64,000 bases of DNA from Paenibacillus ferrarius (lineage in GTDB: Bacteria; Bacillota; Bacilli; Paenibacillales; NBRC-103111), in the NCBI RefSeq assembly GCF_002027705.1, contig NZ_MBTG01000019.1, positions 1 through 64,000 on the forward strand, written 5' to 3'. The first letter of the stretch is position 1; each line of letters opens with the position of its first letter. Made by a program: the position numbers and the translations under genes. Shown here piece after piece: positions 21,763 through 32,474 of the stretch. The notes under the pieces were generated by a model. It was not told the origin of the DNA, did not search any database, and saw only the letters and a list, made by a program, of their open reading frames with translations.

Positions 21763-22240
21763 TACAACTTATGTGTTGGAGTGTTCCATAAACGGCAAAC
21801 CAGTAGCGCTACCTGTACCCGCAGCCAAACGGATGTCTGATATTTTGCGCGATGACCTCCTTTTAACAGGGACCAAGGTGTCATGTGAAATTGGACGCTG
21901 CGGCGCCTGTATGGTACTGCTGGATGGCAAGCCAGTGAACTCCTGTCTGCTCATGGCCTATCAAGCGGCTGGCAAGAAGATCACAACCATCGAGGGGATA
22001 TCCGAAGGAGAGGGTCTACATCCAATCCAACAAGCGATGCTGGAGGAGGGAGGGTTGCAGTGCGGTTATTGCACCGCAGGGATGGTCGTTACGCTCACAG
22101 CCTTATGGGAGAAGAATCCTGCGCCGAACAGGGCAGAGGCAGAACAAGCATTGTGCGGGAATATATGCCGATGCACGGGTTATGAAGGTATTTTCAGAGC
22201 TGTAGAAAGATGTGGGTTGTCGATAAAAAGAGAGGGGTAG
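21755..22240 (+). CDS. pucE: Xanthine dehydrogenase [2Fe-2S] subunit (PucE)
   Basis: The 161-residue iron-sulfur subunit. An N-terminal plant-type ferredoxin domain has Cys residues in SCEIGRCGAC and the following NSC. The C-terminal helical domain binds the second cluster through QCGYCTAGM and CGNICRCTGYEGI. It starts at TTG 21755 behind GGAGG, overlapping pucD by 8 bases. With PucC and PucD it makes the complete three-subunit enzyme. Confidence 0.93.
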   Translation: MINTTYVLECSINGKPVALPVPAAKRMSDILRDDLLLTGTKVSCEIGRCGACMVLLDGKPVNSCLLMAYQAAGKKITTIEGISEGEGLHPIQQAMLEEGGLQCGYCTAGMVVTLTALWEKNPAPNRAEAEQALCGNICRCTGYEGIFRAVERCGLSIKREG

Positions 22241-22248
22241 AAGCCATT

Positions 22249-23394
22249 ATGCCAAAAAAACTGACGCTTGTTCTAACTGCAATCTTCCTTATGATCATGA
22301 CAGCTTGCTCTGCAAAATCGACGGATACGAGTGTGGCAACAACACCGGGAAGCTCACCTGCTGCAACACAAGCAACAACCGCAACTCCGCAAGCTGATAA
22401 AAAATTGCCCAGAGTCGCCTTTGTCTATATCGGTGTTCCCGGTGATGGCGGTTGGACGTATGAACACGATCAGGGGCGTATCATGCTAGAGAAAGAGCTG
22501 GGTATTAAAGCCACAACAGTTGAAAATATCCCGGAAGGCCCAGACGCAGAGCGGGTATTTGAGGAGCTGGCTCAGAAGAACGAGATTGTATTCGGCACCT
22601 CTTTTGGTTACATGGATGCTATGGTTAATGTAGCTTCTAAACATCCCAATGTGAAATTTTTACATGCAACAGGCTACAAAACGTCCCCTAATTTGGGAAC
22701 TTACATGGGGCGCGAATACCAAAGTGCCTACCTCGTAGGCATGGCAGCCGGCAAAATGACCAAAAACAATCACCTGGGCTATGTCGGTGCATTCCCGATT
22801 CCCGAAGTTATTTACACAATTAATGCTTTCACACTTGGCGCTCAAAGCGTGAATCCGGATATCGATGTATCCGTTGTTTGGAGCAACACGTGGTTTGATC
22901 CAGCAACAGAGAAACAAGCAGCGATTTCTTTGCTCGACAAAGGCGTGGATGTATTGGCGGCTTATCAGGATTCACCTGCCAGCATTCAAGCGGCTGCGGA
23001 ACGTAAAGTTTGGGGAATCGGCAATGACTCCGATATGAACAGATTTGCGCCAGAGACCTACATTTCGAATCCGAAATGGAACTGGGGACCTTATTATGTG
23101 AAAACGGTGAAAAGCATCATGGACGGCACATGGAAGTCAGAGGCCTATTTTGGAAGTATGAAAGATGGAATTACAGACATTGCGCCTCTAGGTAAGAATG
23201 TGCCGGCTGATGTCAAAGTGCTCGTGGAGAAGAAAAAGCAAGACATTTTGGCAGGAACCTTTGAGGTGTTCCAAGGTCCGCTTATTGATCAAGACGGGAA
23301 AGTCCGCTATGAGCAAGGCAAAAAGATGACAGACGAAGAGATTTTAGGCACAACGTGGTTTGTTAAGGGGATTAAGGGTGTCATTCCGAAATAA
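22249..23394 (+). CDS. BMP-family nucleoside-binding lipoprotein
   Basis: A 381-residue substrate-binding lipoprotein of the basic membrane protein (BMP/PnrA/NupN) family. The signal peptide ends in the lipobox IMTAC-S, followed by a Ser/Thr/Ala linker. The binding domain opens with RVAFVYIGVPGDGGWTYEHDQG, a typical BMP start. It probably supplies purine nucleosides or bases to the NupOPQ-like transporter at 3626-7250, which lacks its own binding protein there. ATG 22249 is chosen over the upstream open frame because of AGAGGGG at 22231 and the signal peptide. It directly follows pucE. Confidence 0.9.
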   Translation: MPKKLTLVLTAIFLMIMTACSAKSTDTSVATTPGSSPAATQATTATPQADKKLPRVAFVYIGVPGDGGWTYEHDQGRIMLEKELGIKATTVENIPEGPDAERVFEELAQKNEIVFGTSFGYMDAMVNVASKHPNVKFLHATGYKTSPNLGTYMGREYQSAYLVGMAAGKMTKNNHLGYVGAFPIPEVIYTINAFTLGAQSVNPDIDVSVVWSNTWFDPATEKQAAISLLDKGVDVLAAYQDSPASIQAAAERKVWGIGNDSDMNRFAPETYISNPKWNWGPYYVKTVKSIMDGTWKSEAYFGSMKDGITDIAPLGKNVPADVKVLVEKKKQDILAGTFEVFQGPLIDQDGKVRYEQGKKMTDEEILGTTWFVKGIKGVIPK

Positions 23395-25085: not shown

Positions 25086-25194
25086 ACCCAGAACTCCTCT
25101 CTGCTCAACCATAGATGTAAAAAAATTTCCATATTTATACTAATTATCATAATGTTAACTCGCTTTGGTGGCATCACAAATATGAAAGGGTTGA

Positions 25195-25222
25195 ATGCAA
25201 ATATTTTGCATGATCATGCAAA
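25195..25222. promoter_or_regulatory. Nested TTTGCAT palindromes, candidate operator
   Basis: ATGCAAA-TAT-TTTGCAT spans 25195-25211. A perfect 18-base palindrome, TTTGCATGATCATGCAAA, spans 25205-25222 and shares its left arm. More TTTGC/GCAAA half-sites follow near 25236, 25246 and 25285. The cluster lies between the divergent unknown gene and the Rpn remnant, just upstream of the latter's promoter. Confidence 0.5.
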
Positions 25223-25246
25223 GTGTGTAAATATTTTTGCGTTAGT

Positions 25247-25276
25247 TTGCAAATGGATGGAATGAGCTTGTATAAT
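25247..25276 (+). promoter_or_regulatory. Promoter upstream of the truncated rpn gene
   Basis: TTGCAA at 25247-25252 and a perfect TATAAT at 25271-25276 are spaced by 18 bases. The frame that follows begins almost at the expected transcription start, so the first usable codon is probably ATG 25312 (after AGGAG at 25293) or a later internal start. Confidence 0.5.
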
Positions 25277-25284
25277 GCTAACTT

Positions 25285-25938
25285 TTGCATTCAGGAGTGA
25301 ATTGTATAGAAATGCAGTTGTTTAATAAATACGATATTGAAAAACGAAGCTTATATTTATGGTCCAAATTGTACGAAGCACAGTTAAGTGAGGGACAAAA
25401 GTATAAAGAGCTGAATAAATGTATAACGATTAATATTCTAAACTACTCATTTTTGCCGGATACACCTTACCATAGTATTTTTCAGCTTAGGGAGATTGTC
25501 ACTCAACTGCCGTTGATCGATGATATAGAGCTCCATTTCATTGAATTGCCTAAGTTGAAGGAAAACGCTGTGAGCCTTGAAGAAGGTTTGGTGAAATGGC
25601 TGCTGTTTCTGAAAGGAACCGAGAAGGAAAAGTGGAAGGTGCTGGCTATGAATGAACCGCAACTTCGTAAAGCAATGGATACCTTGGAGTTTTTGAGCCA
25701 GAATGAAGAGGCAAGAAGGCTGTATGAGATGAGGCAGAAGGCTTTGCATGATGAGGCTTCGATGCTTTATGGGGCAAGGGAAGAAGGTAAAGCTGAAGGT
25801 AAAGCGGAAGGTAGAGCTGAGGGTAAATTCGAAGTGGCAAGGAATATGCTGGGTGAAGGCATCCAGGTTTCTCTGATTAGTAGAATGACGGGTTTGTCTG
25901 AGCAGGAGATTGAGAGGTTGAAGGGGCAGCGGCATTAG
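25285..25938 (+). CDS. 5'-truncated Rpn-family nuclease gene (PD-(D/E)XK transposase family remnant)
   Basis: A 217-codon frame starting at TTG 25285. From IEMQLFNKYDIEKRS onward it aligns with the full Rpn protein at 31195, but about 78 N-terminal residues are missing, including the catalytic Asp strand. The E-x-Q of the nuclease site remains. The C-terminal half keeps the charged (EGKAEGKAEGR) repeat and the helix-turn-helix-like end. ATG 25648 has AAGGTG 6 bases upstream, so a 96-residue C-terminal protein could be made. It is probably a decayed copy; a function for the short form is speculative. Confidence 0.8.
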   Translation: MHSGVNCIEMQLFNKYDIEKRSLYLWSKLYEAQLSEGQKYKELNKCITINILNYSFLPDTPYHSIFQLREIVTQLPLIDDIELHFIELPKLKENAVSLEEGLVKWLLFLKGTEKEKWKVLAMNEPQLRKAMDTLEFLSQNEEARRLYEMRQKALHDEASMLYGAREEGKAEGKAEGRAEGKFEVARNMLGEGIQVSLISRMTGLSEQEIERLKGQRH

Positions 25939-26009: not shown

Positions 26010-26058
26010 AAAAAAGGACTGTATAATTAGCCAGTGGCTAGTTATACAATCCTTTTTT
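26010..26058. terminator. Bidirectional terminator between the rpn remnant and comX
   Basis: A near-perfect stem pairs AAAAAAGGACTGTATAA and AGCC with GGCT and TTATACAATCCTTTTTT. A-run and T-run on opposite sides allow termination of both the + strand rpn remnant and the - strand comX candidate. Confidence 0.85.
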
Positions 26059-26080
26059 ATTTGGTAGAATAAGACTAGTA

Positions 26081-26266
26081 TTATGTCCAAGAACTTTGAA
26101 CACCGACTAATTGGCTTGTTCTTACATCTGTAAAGCTTTTTTTTACAGCAGCAGATTCACTAGCAGATAATTCATTAATACTTAGCTTATCGATACTCTG
26201 TAATTCCACTTTCTTCATCATGTGGACTAGTTCATGCAATTTTGGATTTAATTGAATAGTTGCCAT
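26081..26266 (-). CDS. comX: Candidate ComX-type quorum-sensing prepeptide
   Basis: A 61-residue peptide ending ...LVGVQSSWT, with its only Trp at position 60. ComX pheromones are cut from the C-terminus of 50-75 residue precursors and prenylated by ComQ on a Trp near the end, so length and Trp position fit. The middle NELSASESAAVKKSF resembles the region before the pheromone in ComX precursors, but overall identity to known ComX is low. AGAGGGG lies 10 bases before ATG 26266. It is divergent from comP, separated by 72 bases, and ends in its own terminator. A link to comP/comA/comQ next door supports the call; it remains a prediction. Confidence 0.62.
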   Translation of the reverse strand: MATIQLNPKLHELVHMMKKVELQSIDKLSINELSASESAAVKKSFTDVRTSQLVGVQSSWT

Positions 26267-26338
26267 AATGTCGTACCCCTCTCGAATGGTTGAAATACAA
26301 AAGTATTATATCAAATAATTGGAAAGCTAGGACACGAA
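26267..26338. promoter_or_regulatory. Divergent comX-comP intergenic region
   Basis: The 72 bases hold overlapping -10-like hexamers: TATAAT on the - strand (26305-26310) toward comX and TATTAT on the + strand (26304-26309) toward comP. No good -35 is seen for either, which suggests activator dependence. No ComA-type TTGCGG/CCGCAA box was found. Confidence 0.4.
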
Positions 26339-28663
26339 ATGATAAAAAAATTTGTAATAGGATCATGTATAGCTATATTTGTAGTATTGCAGATTTGGTG
26401 TTCCATTTTCATATTTTATTACCCTTATGTTGGAATTGAAGTGGAATTATCACAAGCCCAGAATAGGATAGTAATTAAGGAATTAGCCCCAGAGGGGGCA
26501 GCTGTAAAGTTAGATCTAAAGGTAGGGGACATCATTCAACAAGTGGATGGTAAGCCAATAGGCGATTCCATTTTATTTCGGAAATGGCAGGCGATTGAGC
26601 AAGTACAAAGCATAACAATATCAAGAAATGGTACAGACTATGAAATTAATATAAATAAGAAGAGCAATATCTTTTACGATATGTTCCCATTGTTAGAGGA
26701 AATCATAAGTTTGTGCATGGCGATTTTACTTTTCACTAAAATGTCACATTCAAAATCTGCTAGACTACTAGCAACTGTTTTTCTGTGTGCTTCTTTCATT
26801 TTTATGAGCTTGGGAGCTTCCATAAGAGGGGATACTATTGGCAAATTTCTGATTACTAGTTTCATGATGCTTATGCCAATTGTGTTTTTGCACTTTTTGG
26901 TTGTTTTCTTTAAAGAGAAAGGCAACATAGAATTACCGACATGGATGCTGAAATATTTATACGGGATTGTCGTTCTTACACTAGGATTAAGACTCTTTTA
27001 CTTTCAACCGTCATTGACATATGTCGTGTACAGTTATGATAAATCAATAACTCTAGGCTTCTCCATGTTCGGCTTCTTAATAAATATGTATCTATTAACT
27101 GTTCAATATGTCAAAGTTCGAAAACAACAATCCTACATGTCTAGTATTATTAAAAGTGTTTGGTTGTCTTGGTTAATTTCTTTTTTACCTATTATATGTT
27201 TTTCCTTTCTACCACAATTACTGACAGGTCAACGTATTTTAAACGCTATATTTACAAGTTGGATTTTGTTATTTTTTCCTATTTCTTTTGCCTATTTAAT
27301 TGCTTCCAATCAATTGTATGACTTTGGTCAAGTTATCAGGCGCATTATGTTTGCGGGTCTGCTTGCAATCTTACCTGTTAGTTTATTTACGGGCGTATAT
27401 GTTTTTCTATTTAAAAAAATGGCTGATGAAAAACAGATTTTGTTTATTTTTATTGGATCAATGACCATAGTAACTATGGTTTTGTATGCGGCCGAGTATT
27501 GGATAACGCGGCTCGAGTCATTCCTATTTCCAAGAAAATACTTACTCCAAACTGCTCTGAAAAAGATTGCGCGAAATCTAGGCACGATTTCTAGTTTCAG
27601 GGAGTTAAAAGAAATCATACTTGTTGATATTGTAAGTACTTTGCAAGTGATGGGTGGGGCTATCGTATTTTGTTATAAGAATGATACGGAAATTATTTAT
27701 GAAGGAGAAATAGATGTTTCAGAAGTTCGGCAGCTTGTTGAAACATCAACGCTACTAGATAACCCTTTGTATACGTGCATAGAAATGAACTATCATGAGG
27801 CATATACTAGTTATCTCATTATGACGCGCAAAAGGACAAATACGCTACTGCCTAAAGAAGAGAAACAGTGGTTGCAGTTAATTACATCTTACTTAGAAGT
27901 TAGCTTAGAAAATGTACATCTAATTCGTAAACTAACAGTCAATTTGCAACAGTTTGCTTCTCAACTTCCTAATGAAGCTGCAGCGCAGGACATTCAATGG
28001 TTTCGTAAGGTCATGTTTGAACTACAGGAGGAGGAACGTATAAGGATTGCGACTGATTTACATGACACAACAATGCAAGATTTATTTTTTCTTAAAAGAA
28101 GAATATCCACGCTGGCTGAAAAATCTACCATGCCTAAAGGAGATCAAGAGCAGTTAAGGAATATGAATAATTTTGTGGATATGATAAATGCGAGTCTCCG
28201 TCAAAGTTGTTTTGAATTAAACCCTCACTTATTGAGAGAAGTGGGTTTGATTAAAACGCTCAAAATGTATGTTGAGAAGGAATCTTACACAGCACCGTTT
28301 GAACTGATATTTGAAGCAATGGCAGTCAAGTTCATTGAAGGTAAAGATTTGCCTACGAAGAGGCACATTTTTAGAATCGTACAAGAATTGCTAAACAATG
28401 CAAAAAAGCATTCACAAGCGACTAAAGTTACGTTTAAGATCATGGAAAGCAATCAAGTTTTTTATCTAAACTATGAAGATAATGGTATAGGTTTTAGCAA
28501 TAAAGAAGGAACACAGAGGGAGATTGGCGCATCAGGATTGGGGATTGAACAGATACGGAGCCGAATTCTGCATATGGGTGGGCAGATGGATTTTCTGACA
28601 CAGCAGGGAAATGGAACGATATTTAAAATCAGAATCCCCATTGAGGAGGTCATTTCTGCATGA
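26339..28663 (+). CDS. comP: ComP-type sensor histidine kinase
   Basis: A 774-residue kinase (B. subtilis ComP is about 769). An N-terminal membrane helix at about 6-29 is followed by an extracytoplasmic PDZ-like domain at about 30-105 (LAPEGAAVKLDLKVGDII). Roughly nine further membrane helices run to about residue 390. The cytoplasmic part has a HisKA_3 dimerisation domain with ATDLHDTTMQDL (phospho-acceptor His575) and a HATPase domain with QELLNNAKKH, EDNGIGF and GASGLGIEQI. It would sense the modified ComX peptide and phosphorylate the ComA-like regulator, whose gene overlaps by 4 bases. The gene is AT-rich compared with the purine genes. SD AGGA is weak before ATG 26339. Confidence 0.88.
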   Translation: MIKKFVIGSCIAIFVVLQIWCSIFIFYYPYVGIEVELSQAQNRIVIKELAPEGAAVKLDLKVGDIIQQVDGKPIGDSILFRKWQAIEQVQSITISRNGTDYEININKKSNIFYDMFPLLEEIISLCMAILLFTKMSHSKSARLLATVFLCASFIFMSLGASIRGDTIGKFLITSFMMLMPIVFLHFLVVFFKEKGNIELPTWMLKYLYGIVVLTLGLRLFYFQPSLTYVVYSYDKSITLGFSMFGFLINMYLLTVQYVKVRKQQSYMSSIIKSVWLSWLISFLPIICFSFLPQLLTGQRILNAIFTSWILLFFPISFAYLIASNQLYDFGQVIRRIMFAGLLAILPVSLFTGVYVFLFKKMADEKQILFIFIGSMTIVTMVLYAAEYWITRLESFLFPRKYLLQTALKKIARNLGTISSFRELKEIILVDIVSTLQVMGGAIVFCYKNDTEIIYEGEIDVSEVRQLVETSTLLDNPLYTCIEMNYHEAYTSYLIMTRKRTNTLLPKEEKQWLQLITSYLEVSLENVHLIRKLTVNLQQFASQLPNEAAAQDIQWFRKVMFELQEEERIRIATDLHDTTMQDLFFLKRRISTLAEKSTMPKGDQEQLRNMNNFVDMINASLRQSCFELNPHLLREVGLIKTLKMYVEKESYTAPFELIFEAMAVKFIEGKDLPTKRHIFRIVQELLNNAKKHSQATKVTFKIMESNQVFYLNYEDNGIGFSNKEGTQREIGASGLGIEQIRSRILHMGGQMDFLTQQGNGTIFKIRIPIEEVISA

Positions 28664-29292
28664 GTGAGATTGTGAGAACCCTTGTTGTCGATGATCACCC
28701 CTTATTTGCTCGAGCAACCAAAGCATTGTTGGAACAAATCGATCACATTGAGGTCATCGGTGTTGTTGGTAACGGAAAGCAGTGTCTGGAACATGTGGAG
28801 CGCTATCAACCTGGACTAGTTTTTCTTGACTATCAGCTGCCGGATCAATCTGGCGTTGAGATTGCAATGGAAATCAAGCGTAAATATCCAGATATTCATA
28901 TTGTTATTTTCACGGGGATCGAATTGAGTGGGATATTTAATAAACTTATTGAAATTAAAGTAAGTGGTATTTTATCGAAAGAATCAAGTGAACGGACAAT
29001 AAAAAACATTGTGAATTGTATTCTGGATGGGCATACGATGGTGCCGCTATCGTTCTTTCACCAAATGCAATTAACAGAATTAGCTATCAAGGAAAGTTTT
29101 GCGTTGGTAGAGGAAGAAATTCTCATGATGAATATGTTAGTAAAAGGAGCTACTCATGATCAAATTGCTGATCAAATCTTCATGAGTAAGCGAACGGTCG
29201 ATAACTATTTACGGAAGATTTATGATAAATTAGGCGTGAAATCTAGGACAGAAGCTCTTGAGAAGTTTATAAAAAGTAAATATTATTCGTAG
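28660..29292 (+). CDS. comA: ComA-type response regulator
   Basis: A 210-residue NarL/LuxR-type regulator (B. subtilis ComA is 214). The receiver domain has Asp11-Asp12 and the phospho-acceptor Asp57 in VFLDYQLPDQSG. The C-terminal helix-turn-helix is MSKRTVDNYLRKIYDKLGVK near residues 179-198. It is cotranscribed with comP (ATGA overlap) and followed by the comQ-like gene after 18 bases. Its targets are not visible in the window. Confidence 0.88.
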   Translation: MSEIVRTLVVDDHPLFARATKALLEQIDHIEVIGVVGNGKQCLEHVERYQPGLVFLDYQLPDQSGVEIAMEIKRKYPDIHIVIFTGIELSGIFNKLIEIKVSGILSKESSERTIKNIVNCILDGHTMVPLSFFHQMQLTELAIKESFALVEEEILMMNMLVKGATHDQIADQIFMSKRTVDNYLRKIYDKLGVKSRTEALEKFIKSKYYS

Positions 29293-29310
29293 TCACCAGG
29301 GGGAAAAAAA

Positions 29311-30231
29311 TTGAAACAGGACGTACATCGCCACATGAGCAATATGATTGATGACTATGTATATGTGGAGAATTTAAATAAATTACTTAAAACATTTATT
29401 GCTGACAAAGAGCAGGAGAAAGACACATGGATGAATATTACATTGTGCACCCATACGATGTTAGGCGGGGCTTCTCCTGACATCTATCGCCTCGCTGCTA
29501 TAACTCAGGTATTTGTTTTAATTTCGGATATCGTTGATGATCTGCAAGATCAAGACCAAGCAAACAAACCATGGATGCAATCCCCTCAAGCATCAACGCT
29601 GAATGCCATTCTAGCAATGCTCATGGGCGTGGTCGGTGAGTTAGGGCAAATGCGGGTCCACGGGAAATTGCTGGTAGAGGTTGCTCAAATTATTGCGCGA
29701 TCGATTAATGGGCAACATAAAGATGTAATCAATGCGGCATCAACGGTCGATGACTATCTGGTAATGACACAGGAGAAATCAGGCTCTCTATTCCGGTTGG
29801 CTTGTTTTATGGGGTATTTATCACTGGATTGTTCAGACGAAACGATTGAGCAGCTTCATGAACTGGCGGACTGCATAGGACTCATCCATCAGATCCAGAA
29901 CGATATGCGAGATCTTATGCGATATGATGTGAAGAATGATTTATACTGTAAAAAGAGCACACTGCCCATTCTATACCTGCTCTCTGTCGAAGATGAAGCC
30001 TTCAACCCACTAAAAGACTACTACGCAGGCAAAATTACCGCAGATACTCTTCTTCATGACAAAGAAGCCTTCAGCCAAATGATTCATGACTCCGGTTGCT
30101 TGGAATATTCTCGTGTTGTGCAATCCGTCTGCTTGCAGAAAGCAGAAGAGATTTATGAAAAGCTTCAAGCTGTCTCGCCATGGAAAGAAAAATTTAGAGA
30201 AATTACCTATGGAAACTTCCTGCCTACATAG
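29311..30231 (+). CDS. comQ: ComQ-type isoprenyl transferase
   Basis: A 306-residue polyprenyl-synthase-fold protein, the length of ComQ (about 299). The first Asp-rich motif is DDLQD at residues 76-80 and the second NDMRD at 197-201; both bind the Mg-diphosphate of the isoprenyl donor. Basic and aromatic residues typical of farnesyl diphosphate synthase are otherwise reduced, as in ComQ. It would prenylate the Trp of the ComX candidate and help export it. TTG 29311 has AGGGGG 7 bases upstream. Alone, a generic polyprenyl synthetase would be an alternative; beside comP and comA the ComQ call is much stronger. Confidence 0.85.
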   Translation: MKQDVHRHMSNMIDDYVYVENLNKLLKTFIADKEQEKDTWMNITLCTHTMLGGASPDIYRLAAITQVFVLISDIVDDLQDQDQANKPWMQSPQASTLNAILAMLMGVVGELGQMRVHGKLLVEVAQIIARSINGQHKDVINAASTVDDYLVMTQEKSGSLFRLACFMGYLSLDCSDETIEQLHELADCIGLIHQIQNDMRDLMRYDVKNDLYCKKSTLPILYLLSVEDEAFNPLKDYYAGKITADTLLHDKEAFSQMIHDSGCLEYSRVVQSVCLQKAEEIYEKLQAVSPWKEKFREITYGNFLPT

Positions 30232-30291: not shown

Positions 30292-31065
30292 TTACCTGTG
30301 AATGCGCTGGTAGTCACTCATGAAAGCAAGCTGTAACGCGGCACTGACGATGTCGTACAAGATAAGAAGAACGAAGAAAAGAAGGGGCAGCCAAAGCGCA
30401 TTAACAAGTAAGCCGGCTATGAGGTTAAAAAGAATGGCGGCGCCGATAAGCGGTAGTGTGTTTGGCGTTCGGTTCTCAAAAGCTATGCGCGAGCGGGAGA
30501 AGGCTTGAGGAATGGAGCAGTCTTCTGCGACAAGACATAGTTCAAGAAAAAGGAAACGTATGCGTAGTAATAGATAGATCAGTATCATAAATATGGCACC
30601 AGCGATTTGAAGAGCGGCAGTCAAAATACCCCCTATTATGAGCAGGGGAATCATGATGATAAGACTCAATAAGATAAATCTGATGAAGAATCTAGCTCCA
30701 TACATAACGAACTTTTCAAACGAAAGCTCTCGTTGATTGACGGCCTCGTGCAGCAAGCCCACATATCCGCCCTGTAGAAAGGCTTGAACAATGAGAAAGA
30801 AGATGAGGAAAAGCAAATTGTTAATCAAGTGTGAAGCGGTGAAACTGCTGCCGACAAGCTGCACGGAGCCTGGCAGGAAGCCTTGCTCGGAAACAGTGTT
30901 TATCGAGGGTAATCCCATCTGCAGCGCAAACTTGAAGGTGAGATGGGGGCTGCCATGGAAGCCATAAAGCGCCGCGCCTACCAGCATTGTCAATACATCC
31001 GCAATAACCGGGATGAGAATAAGCAGCGGAAATTTGAATAGTTTTCCAAATGTTGCGGATATCAA
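30292..31065 (-). CDS. Multi-pass membrane protein of unknown function
   Basis: A 257-residue integral membrane protein with about six hydrophobic segments. The internal LRIRFLFLELCLVAEDCSIPQAFSRSR near residue 165 resembles DUF-type families with a soluble helix between membrane spans (the DUF4013/DUF975 sort), but I cannot name it. TTG 31065 has GGAGGG 8 bases upstream. It converges on comQ across a shared terminator and is divergent from the rpn gene. Confidence 0.7.
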   Translation of the reverse strand: MISATFGKLFKFPLLILIPVIADVLTMLVGAALYGFHGSPHLTFKFALQMGLPSINTVSEQGFLPGSVQLVGSSFTASHLINNLLFLIFFLIVQAFLQGGYVGLLHEAVNQRELSFEKFVMYGARFFIRFILLSLIIMIPLLIIGGILTAALQIAGAIFMILIYLLLRIRFLFLELCLVAEDCSIPQAFSRSRIAFENRTPNTLPLIGAAILFNLIAGLLVNALWLPLLFFVLLILYDIVSAALQLAFMSDYQRIHR

Positions 31066-31158
31066 GTGTAATCCCTCCTCAGCGAACTTCTCTTCTTTTT
31101 ACGTGGAAGAACTTGGGAAAGTTGCGCATTCCTTTTATGTCTCAACCCCATCAATCAT

Positions 31159-31166
31159 GGTATAAT
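31159..31166 (+). promoter_or_regulatory. Extended -10 promoter of the full-length rpn gene
   Basis: TGGTATAAT carries an extended TG motif next to a perfect TATAAT at 31161-31166. No consensus -35 is found. The start codon lies 29 bases downstream. Confidence 0.55.
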
Positions 31167-31194
31167 AGTAAGGAAAAGGAATGGAGCTGACGCT

Positions 31195-32064
31195 ATGTTC
31201 GATAGACTTGACCCGAAAGTAGATTTTGTATTTAAGCGTATTTTCGGAGTGGAAGAGAATAAAGACGTACTGCTCGATTTTTTGAATGTAACATTAAGGG
31301 AAAGTGAGCCGCGTCCATTGACCGACATTCACATTCTAAACCCTTACATCGATAAAAATGCTTTGCACGATAAACTGTCCATCCTGGACGTACATGCCCG
31401 CACGGCGGACGGGAAACAAGTGAATATTGAAATTCAATTGTTTAACCGTTACGACATTGAGAAGCGGACTTTGTATTATTGGAGCAAAATGTATGCCAGC
31501 CAGCTAGAAGAAGGACAAAAATATAAAGAGCTCAGAAAGACAATCACCATTAACATTTTAAACTTCAAATTTATTCCTAACGACCGTTATTATAATTTGT
31601 TTCATTTGAGGGAAGATCATATGGGACTCGTACTGACCGACCATATTGAGATCCATTTCATGGAGCTTCCCAAACTAGAAGAGCAGAAGGTCAGGTTCTC
31701 GGATAAATTGGTCAAATGGTTGTTGTTCTTAAAAGGTGTGGATAAACCAGAAGTATGGGAGGAGATTTCGATGAACGAACCAGCTTTGCAAAAGGCGATG
31801 GATACGCTTGAATTTCTGAGCCAGAATGAAGAGGCCCGAAGGCTTTATGAAATGAGGCAAAAAGCGCTGCATGATGAGGCTTCGATGATTGATGGGGCTA
31901 GGGAAGAAGGTATGCAAAAAGGTATGCAAGTAGGTATGCATAAGAGCAAAATCGAAATAGCCAAAAACTTGCTCGGCATGGGCATCGACGTAGCTAAGGT
32001 AATCGTGGCCACGGGCTTAACTAAAGATGAAGTTCAAAAATTAAAAAATGAATTGATGCAGTAG
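31195..32064 (+). CDS. Rpn-family recombination-promoting nuclease / putative transposase
   Basis: A 289-residue PD-(D/E)XK nuclease of the Rpn (PDDEXK_2 transposase) family. It opens with LDPKVDFVFKRIFG; the catalytic core is ILDVHARTADGKQVNIEIQL (Asp near 63, E-x-Q near 80). The C-terminal half has a charged coiled segment, an EGMQKGMQVGM repeat and a terminal helix-turn-helix-like module. Rpn proteins cut DNA, stimulate RecA-independent recombination and can act in phage defence. GGAG lies before ATG 31195. Inside the gene, GGGAGGAG at 31757-31764 precedes ATG 31771, so a C-terminal short form is likely. Confidence 0.88.
   Translation: MFDRLDPKVDFVFKRIFGVEENKDVLLDFLNVTLRESEPRPLTDIHILNPYIDKNALHDKLSILDVHARTADGKQVNIEIQLFNRYDIEKRTLYYWSKMYASQLEEGQKYKELRKTITINILNFKFIPNDRYYNLFHLREDHMGLVLTDHIEIHFMELPKLEEQKVRFSDKLVKWLLFLKGVDKPEVWEEISMNEPALQKAMDTLEFLSQNEEARRLYEMRQKALHDEASMIDGAREEGMQKGMQVGMHKSKIEIAKNLLGMGIDVAKVIVATGLTKDEVQKLKNELMQ
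31771..32064 (+). CDS. Possible intragenic short Rpn protein (RpnS-like)
   Basis: In-frame internal start ATG 31771 with GGGAGGAG at 31757-31764, a 6-base spacing and as strong an SD as any in the window. It would give a 97-residue protein made of the C-terminal helical part without the nuclease domain. In E. coli, in-frame C-terminal Rpn products counteract the toxicity of the long nuclease. The stand-alone duplicate at 32145 keeps exactly this start. Expression is inferred. Confidence 0.45.
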   Translation: MNEPALQKAMDTLEFLSQNEEARRLYEMRQKALHDEASMIDGAREEGMQKGMQVGMHKSKIEIAKNLLGMGIDVAKVIVATGLTKDEVQKLKNELMQ

Positions 32065-32144
32065 TCACACCAGAGAGCGTCTCATAGTAGGGCGGTTTTT
32101 TTCTCGATATCTCGGATAAATTGGTCAAATGGGAGGAGATTTCG

Positions 32145-32474
32145 ATGAACGAACCGGCGTTGCAAAAGGCGATGGATACACTAGAATTTCTGAGCCAGAA
32201 TGAAGAGGCTAGAAGGCTTTATGAAATGAGGCAAAAAGCGCTGCATGATGAGGCTTCGATGATTGATGGGGCTAGGGAAGAAGGAATGCAAAAAGGTATG
32301 CAAATAGGTATGGAAGAAGGAATGCAAAAAGGTATGCAAGTAGGTATGCATAAGAGCAAAATCGAAATAGCCAAGAATTTGCTCGGCGTAAGCATGGACG
32401 TAGCTAAGGTAATAGAGGCAACGGGCTTATCTAAAGATGAAATCCAAAAATTAAAAGTTGAATTAATGAAGTAG
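32145..32474 (+). CDS. Stand-alone duplicate of the Rpn C-terminal region
   Basis: A 109-residue frame from ATG 32145 (GGGAGGAG at 32131-32138), a tandem partial copy of the end of the upstream rpn gene. The copied block starts near CTCGGATAAATTGGTCAAATGG and has lost 39 bases (13 codons) compared with the parent, which brings the SD to the front. The EGMQKGMQ repeat is longer by one 12-residue unit. The last 40 residues differ from the parent at several positions (GVSMDVAKVIEATGLSKDEI), so the copy is not brand new. It has its own terminator. It may act as a free RpnS-type partner; the frame is also open from TTG 32121. Confidence 0.7.
   Translation: MNEPALQKAMDTLEFLSQNEEARRLYEMRQKALHDEASMIDGAREEGMQKGMQIGMEEGMQKGMQVGMHKSKIEIAKNLLGVSMDVAKVIEATGLSKDEIQKLKVELMK

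Follow-up and report, generated by a model that had tools for sequence, protein, structure and literature searches.

Known ComQXPA systems and the com locus of Paenibacillus ferrarius

In the canonical ComQXPA quorum-sensing systems of Bacillus subtilis and of non-subtilis bacteria, as PMC4008528 describes them, the genes comQ, comX, comP and comA lie in this order on one strand. A locus with four homologous components was analyzed here in a 64,000-nucleotide stretch of Paenibacillus ferrarius (the window; contig NZ_MBTG01000019.1, positions 1 to 64,000), in which the comX-like peptide gene is reversed and is followed by comP, comA and comQ (X<P>A>Q>). As in the canonical systems, ComQ has a DDxxD motif and an ND pseudo-SARM, ComP has HisKA_3, HATPase_c and an N-terminal PDZ-like stretch, and the precursor is of similar length, with a tryptophan near its C-terminus and a variable tail. 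The differences besides gene order are that the window ComQ was 25-34% identical to 22 canonical ComQs, that the peptide lies below the Pfam ComX cut-off, and that the variable block consists of the peptide and the ComP sensor without ComQ. Judged by its sequence, the locus is a real, widespread ComQXPA variant, which fits most tests and fails two formal features: its peptide does not reach the Pfam cut-off for ComX, and its genes are not in the canonical order on one strand. Very probably it is a ComQXPA-type system in which ComQ prenylates Trp60 of the peptide, and the processed peptide activates ComP and then ComA.

In 2014, three B. cereus strains (VD102 and two others) and L. fusiformis ZC1 were described as having a hypothetical comX that lies between comQ and comP but is encoded on the other strand (PMC4008528, Fig. 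4A by its text description). As in the window, the comX-like gene is inverted relative to comP there, and the locus L170 of genome G291 is similar. However, comQ precedes the peptide gene in those loci, whereas it follows comA in the window. The different gene layout claimed by an earlier, sequence-only reading of this DNA therefore stands for the last place of comQ, while inversion had already been reported. The same paper (Dogsa et al. 2014) describes an unusual canonical-order locus in Paenibacillus curdlanolyticus, and P. polymyxa genomes were reported to be without comQXPA (PMC4209062). No description of the X<P>A>Q> layout was found in the full-text literature searched, which covers few subscription papers. 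What is new is the comQ-last layout, together with its occurrence across the family of the window and related groups, and the family of peptides. The features of the locus are as follows:

26081..26266, minus strand: peptide gene (comX-like precursor), 61 amino acids (aa), Trp60; leader MATIQLNPKLHELVHMMKK, conserved LS..E..A...F-type segment, variable tail ending SSWT (putative, from sequence and profile relation to ComX)
26276..26282, minus strand: probable ribosome-binding site of the peptide gene, AGAGGGG (read from sequence; upstream stretches of relatives also compared)
26305..26313, minus strand: extended -10 promoter-like element of the peptide gene, TGATATAAT (putative function)
26020..26048, no strand assigned: stem-loop 32 bases past the peptide stop codon (terminator-like on the plus strand only in the scan; T-run on the minus strand by eye)
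26339..28663, plus strand: comP, membrane sensor histidine kinase, 774 aa, His575 (sequence, Pfam, model)
26429..26650, plus strand: PDZ-like domain of ComP, residues 31-104, placed after the first long helix and before the second (Pfam, model; exposed side presumed)
28660..29292, plus strand: comA, response regulator with LuxR/GerE DNA-binding domain, 210 aa, Asp57 (sequence, Pfam)
29311..30231, plus strand: comQ, tryptophan prenyltransferase candidate, 306 aa, TTG start, FARM DDLQD, pseudo-SARM QIQNDMRD (sequence, Pfam, tree)
26039..27389, approximate, no strand: hypervariable block of peptide gene and ComP sensor half (presumptive window coordinates, projected from the locus pairs L036/L044 and L037/L045)

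The coordinates, lengths and motifs given by the sequence-only reading for ComP (774 aa, His575), ComA (210 aa, Asp57) and ComQ (306 aa, DDLQD, NDMRD) were confirmed, as were the 61-residue frame ending in SSWT with Trp60 on the opposite strand upstream of comP and the last place of comQ. Its claim of a terminator for the peptide gene held in part: the stem is present 32 bases past the stop and a T-run is seen by eye on the minus strand, while the scan scored the plus strand only. The peptide start lies 72 bases from comP. Since comP and comA overlap by 4 bp and comA is separated from comQ by 18 bp, the three genes are probably one operon.

The peptide gene and its relation to ComX

When 147 relatives were searched for ComQ, 83 genomes gave a match at E 1e-10. 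In the first batch, 60 ComQ loci were fetched, giving 61 with the window; ComP and ComQ were found together in 58 of them, four of which were cut upstream of comP. A divergent small frame with tryptophan in its last three residues was present upstream of comP in all 54 first-batch loci with upstream DNA; lack of conservation of such a frame at this place had been named beforehand as a refuting test. The second batch comprised 28 loci (L137-L164) with a ComP match in 24, and the peptide was found by profile in 19 of these (E < 0.5; two at 0.4-0.5), with weaker by-eye candidates in three more. Moreover, an open reading frame (ORF) of 50-75 aa on the opposite strand, with tryptophan in the last three residues, occurred upstream of comP in 52/53 loci, compared with 17 of 2650 dinucleotide shuffles and 1/53 on the comP strand. 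The pooled ratio of nonsynonymous to synonymous differences (pN/pS) was 0.33 over 16 hand-picked, partly overlapping pairs, and the corresponding substitution ratio (dN/dS) of single pairs ranged from 0.00 to 0.73. By these comparisons, the peptide frame is a real, conserved gene, on the whole under purifying selection. In one relative (L068, 1985-2164), the frame has CTC instead of ATG, GTG or TTG at the relatives' start position, which may be a rare start codon directly after a strong ribosome-binding site.

It is extremely improbable that the frame is non-coding and that the true pheromone gene is to be sought at another place. The lack of a Pfam or NCBIfam match for the window frame would favour this explanation; but the count of 52/53 loci against the shuffles and the pN/pS value speak against it, and so does the element TGNTATAAT, an extended -10 box pointing towards the peptide gene, which was exact in 15 of 18 aligned loci. 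In addition, the peptide profile had a single match in the window genome. The sequence-only reading had called the peptide the only small Trp-ending frame nearby, which did not hold: six others (35-110 aa, Trp in the last five residues) were found between 22 and 34.5 kb. The frames at 29889 and 30791 lie wholly, and that at 26290 mostly, within comP, comQ or the gene at 30292-31065; the frame at 22520 lies within the ORF 22210-23394, and the remaining two are 25152-25265 (plus) and 31050-31190 (plus).

The peptides share a consensus of a leader, MxxIQLxPxLxxxVxxLK, followed by LSxxExxAxxxTF and a variable tail. Their lengths in the relatives were 38-72 aa (median 65), and 52 of the 54 sequences were distinct. 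ComX precursors have about 52-73 aa and a tryptophan near the C-terminus, and the window peptide, with 61 aa and Trp60, is in agreement with this. The leader was more conserved than the tail (mean pairwise identity 0.30 vs 0.20), and the tails were hypervariable across loci. Tryptophan was at position -2 in 49 of the 54 peptides, solely at -1 in three and only at -3 in two, with both -1 and -2 occupied in 14. The penultimate tryptophan had been taken as the sign of a new pheromone type; this claim was not upheld, since 17 of the 24 canonical ComX precursors collected had tryptophan only at -2. Furthermore, a review reports that ComQ of Bacillus RO-E-2 accepts tryptophan at the second to fourth position from the C-terminus (PMC5331326), a range that fits Trp60 of 61 but not the 3/54 relatives with tryptophan solely at -1.

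The canonical ComX set was obtained through PF05952 from 104 genomes of the window's family (three over the cut-off) and 398 genomes of its class (22 over the cut-off). Of 33 loci, 24 entered the set; the others were L094, with a broken frame, L105, with a wrong frame, and seven for which the script gave no frame. The alignment of the divergent peptides with the 24 canonical ComX precursors by hhalign gave a probability of 88, an E value of 2.8e-6 and a score of 29.6, compared with 15.1 for the best of 200 column shuffles; the aligned columns covered the C-terminal half only. On this profile evidence, the divergent peptide is a remote relative of ComX.

The peptide profile matched 76 of the 104 family genomes. 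ComQ was searched in 89 of them, and G031, G033 and G052 (canonical or weak ComQ matches) were left out of the co-occurrence count; the peptide was present in 66/70 genomes with a window-type ComQ and in 1/16 without (Fisher 2.7e-12). Of the four misses, three (G037, G064 and G073) yielded a candidate in the local search or on inspection by eye, and the candidate in G047 is 38 aa long. This distribution bears on a further explanation, in which the small protein would remain in the cell without modification and either inhibit ComP or act as its cofactor, the tryptophan serving for binding rather than prenylation. No signal peptide was apparent by eye, and the better-kept leader would also suit such a role; however, the co-occurrence with window-type ComQ, the constant placing of tryptophan among the final three residues, in a tail that varies elsewhere, and the profile relation to ComX argue against it, and it is considered very unlikely.

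ComQ, ComP and the co-variation of signal and receptor

ComQ matched the Pfam family polyprenyl_synt, and the window genome has two other PF00348 proteins. A ComQ-type enzyme has DDxxD as its first motif and a degenerate second one, and the window ComQ has DDLQD and ND. The second Asp-rich motif was ND instead of DD in 60/61 divergent-type and 22/22 canonical ComQs, while both of the genome's own synthases have DD. A maximum-likelihood tree was built from 85 proteins; one of its branches (100/100) set the 61 window-type ComQs apart, and the own two prenyl-diphosphate synthases were separated from the ComQs at 99/97. The grouping of the transferase with ComQ, expected by the sequence-only reading, was thus borne out, and ComQ as a farnesyl-diphosphate synthase was rejected because the own synthases fall outside the ComQ side of the tree and keep the DD motif. 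Profile and fold searches of solved structures returned isoprenoid-synthase-superfamily entries (best 60 of 100 and best 50 of 690, respectively), which is to be expected of a member of this superfamily, and did not separate these readings; the ComQ model was an all-helical isoprenoid synthase with a predicted local distance difference test score (pLDDT) of 92.9. In L038 (3704-5737), a tandem comQ pair (72% and 64% identical to the window ComQ) follows one comP-comA pair.

The nearest outside neighbour of the window ComQ clade was L127, the ComQ of G291 at locus L170 (97/90, on a long branch flagged as unsure); it kept its place when cut at the stop near its end (95/92). In a second tree with named organisms, Cohnella and Chengkuizengella (L091, the L237 contig) fell within the clade. 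Two further loci, L247 (Paenibacillus sp. Soil522) and L249 (P. vietnamensis), were nested in it with moderate support (93/80 and 92/83), and both have the order comQ-peptide-comP-comA on one strand, with a Trp-ending peptide in the ordinary comX slot. The L247 peptide matched the new profile (E 3e-4), and that of L249 was found by eye. These two loci are good circumstantial evidence that the divergent peptide does the job of ComX. The history may have begun with an inversion of comX, followed by a relocation of comQ, and L247 and L249 would then have gone back to the canonical order; the direction of these changes is presumed.

The Pfam domains of ComP were PDZ (26.6 bits, cut-off 23.2), HisKA_3 and HATPase_c, and those of ComA were Response_reg and GerE. 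The PDZ-like domain proposed by the sequence-only reading was therefore found. HisKA_3 and HATPase_c were present in 51/51 ComPs; the PDZ model was matched by six of the 51 at E 0.01, with the window ComP above the cut-off, and it was below the cut-off in 4/4 ComPs scanned from PF05952-type loci. The ComP model (pLDDT 75.7, predicted template modelling score 0.51) had a strand-rich domain at 33-104, a series of helices and a kinase core. The PDZ-like strands had a pLDDT of about 72-86, and the helices after them are read as membrane spans, about 10 in all. The fold search returned mostly kinase- and phytochrome-type entries among the best 50 of 1112, so the PDZ-like domain rests on Pfam and the model strands. 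Four ComP segments were compared, and segment 20-110, which holds this domain, had the lowest conservation.

The DNA identity was profiled along five locus pairs: L036/L044, L037/L045, L033/L034, window/L034 and L057/L058. In the first two, the identity was 0.89-0.97 on the left flank (-750 to -300) and 0.86-0.97 on the right (+1200 to +3600), and dipped to 0.58-0.86 across the peptide gene and the sensor half of ComP. For L033/L034, it was low from beyond the peptide through comP to about +2250, with comA and comQ at 0.93-0.99. In window/L034 and L057/L058, the dip was present and the left flanks had no close match. In the best-readable pairs, the peptide gene and the sensor half of ComP vary as one block, and ComQ is conserved. 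The ComQ and ComA proteins of L033 and L034 were 97% and 98% identical, respectively, and their peptide tails were 20% alike; hence, tails of very different sequence would have to be substrates of a single ComQ type.

These results also bear on PalQ/PalX, a different tryptophan prenylation system of Paenibacillus described in PMC10853753 and PMC13290415. The PalQ/PalX/PalP system of P. alvei resembles the window locus in having an isoprenoid-synthase-superfamily tryptophan prenyltransferase, a Trp-ending precursor and a histidine kinase. PalX is a Trp-prenylated, ribosomally synthesized and post-translationally modified peptide (RiPP), and it also adjoins a histidine kinase gene (PMC10853753). 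By analogy, the window peptide could be a prenylated, bacteriocin-like RiPP modified by ComQ, with ComP and ComA regulating without sensing. We regard this as very unlikely, since the peptide gene stays beside comP where the stretch has no comQ (L265, L266 and L268), forms a single variable block together with the sensor half of ComP in two pairs and occupies the comX slot in two loci. PalX has an NHLP leader and a terminal tryptophan, whereas the window peptide has no NHLP-type match and tryptophan at -2; PalQ, compared by description only, tolerates no C-terminal alanine extension (PMC10853753; PMC13290415). No NHLP-type family name was found among the matches listed for the 54 peptides (25 of 27 Pfam families, 7 NCBIfam), and no transporter or protease gene was seen by eye adjoining the locus. 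A search with a degenerate DNA pattern for DNVRRFFW gave one match in 104 genomes; it was rejected as a chance match because it lies in a stop-filled frame without a terminal tryptophan.

Several results weigh against the ComQXPA reading. In terms of co-variation, matching flanks on both sides were found in just two of the five pairs profiled. Peptide and receptor distances were compared in 43 of 53 peptides (left out were L042, whose ComP is split in two, seven loci lacking a linked ComA and two identical-peptide repeats; L076 was absent), and the partial correlation was weak for both the ComP PDZ segment (p 0.049) and the membrane segment (p 0.15). In a subset of 19 close loci, picked after this weak result, the peptide tail co-varied with the ComP membrane segment beyond ComA and the kinase (partial r 0.58, p 0.0005) and did not co-vary with ComQ (r -0.25). 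When the leader distance was also controlled, the signal of the PDZ segment was gone (r -0.04), and the membrane segment had r 0.30 (p 0.004). Physical linkage alone can yield co-variation, so the pattern supports, but does not prove, ligand-receptor pairing.

As regards the components themselves, the loci L149 and L155 carry ComP, with an incomplete match in each, and no peptide. Window-type comQ without a comP or comA match in the fetched stretch was found in L146, L164, L172 and L173; Trp-ending frames near L164 and L173 are unlike the peptide family, and none were listed near L146 and L172. Besides lacking the database matches mentioned above, the window peptide, like all 54, stayed under the PF05952 cut-off of 25 bits (best 19.8 bits), and four of the 54 matched at E up to 1; the peptide of L170, inverted between comQ and comP, reached 24.7 bits. 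The B. subtilis control genome was below the cut-off in the family-level scan and had no match at E 0.001 in the class-level scan; accordingly, the cut-off is a blunt test, and Pfam-based comX counts are likely low. Finally, ComA boxes were not in excess in the window (31 sites vs 32.5 expected).

Spread, second loci and implications

Among 79 loci of named organisms, many from the same genomes as the other sets, 65 carry the divergent peptide. The layouts of all 79 were X<P>A>Q> (55), the same with an extra ComP copy (4), without comA (6), and other or incomplete (14). The closest named relatives by ComQ were Paenibacillus marchantiophytorum (86%) and P. alba (79%). At the 5' ends of L070, L140, L079, L088 and L091, an extra comP copy (3' part) lies upstream of the peptide gene, which suggests local duplication of the signalling pair.

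Four genomes (G006, G023, G012 and G010) were examined for a second locus; each of them has a further comP-comA pair in a stretch that lacks comQ, and three have a divergent peptide belonging to this pair. The first locus lacked comA in three of the four genomes. A ComA 48-57% identical to that of the window was encoded elsewhere in five of six genomes having a comA-less locus; the sixth, G050, has only a 31% ComA elsewhere, which speaks against a simple shared ComA there. ComQ and ComA may be shared in trans between two loci. The second loci L265, L266 and L268 are unlinked peptide-comP-comA units, and the same genomes have the first loci L043, L040 and L047, two of which have comQ without comA, while L047 has both. 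The tails of the paired loci (...EPKEEFWF, ...EPKEDFWF, and ...EPICNWF or ...EPICNWW) have the EP and W positions in common.

The window genome is 9.18 Mb in size. By eye, genes for a Rieske-type protein and a catalase lie on the flanks of the locus in the window, L036 and L037, which places the locus at a conserved chromosomal position in these. Copies of a PD-(D/E)XK family transposase flank the com locus at 25285-25938 (PF12784 match) and at 31195-32064 and 32121-32474 (tblastn similarity), and they also occur near the locus in three relatives (L033, L034 and L035).

ComQXPA systems are defined in part by a geranyl or farnesyl group on the tryptophan of the precursor and by density-dependent activation of ComP. 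In the proposed mechanism, ComQ would recognize the leader and the C-terminal end of the 61-residue precursor and attach an isoprenyl group to Trp60. The precursor would then be cut and exported, yielding a short peptide from the C-terminus with prenyl-Trp-Thr at its end. When cell density is high, this peptide would bind ComP in its variable N-terminal half, which comprises the PDZ-like domain and the membrane helices, and, as the domains and homology suggest, ComP would phosphorylate ComA, which would control the target genes. Many relatives with the same arrangement probably use an uncharacterized lipid-tagged peptide signal.

A broader reading, to which we give somewhat less than an even chance, is that a distinct class of Trp-prenylated pheromone system is used by the family of the window and its kin, namely several groups of Paenibacillus, Cohnella and Chengkuizengella. 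The signal gene and the sensing half of the receptor would form a contiguous, exchangeable specificity cassette at one end of the locus, with a conserved, sequence-tolerant ComQ at the other. Some species would distribute two receptors with different pheromones over two loci, one without comA and the other without comQ, and both would depend on a single ComQ and a single ComA acting in trans. In addition, the PDZ-like domain of ComP may clamp the free prenyl-Trp C-terminus.

The locus suggests a path by which canonical comQXPA could have been rearranged, with inversion of comX before relocation of comQ. Some fifty natural precursors, each with its receptor, would be material for studying how ComQ picks its tryptophan and how ComP reads the tail. 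If the reading is true, many soil and plant-associated bacteria would have a pheromone class that annotation by family profiles misses, because the peptides score under the Pfam threshold for ComX and the genes are ordered differently.

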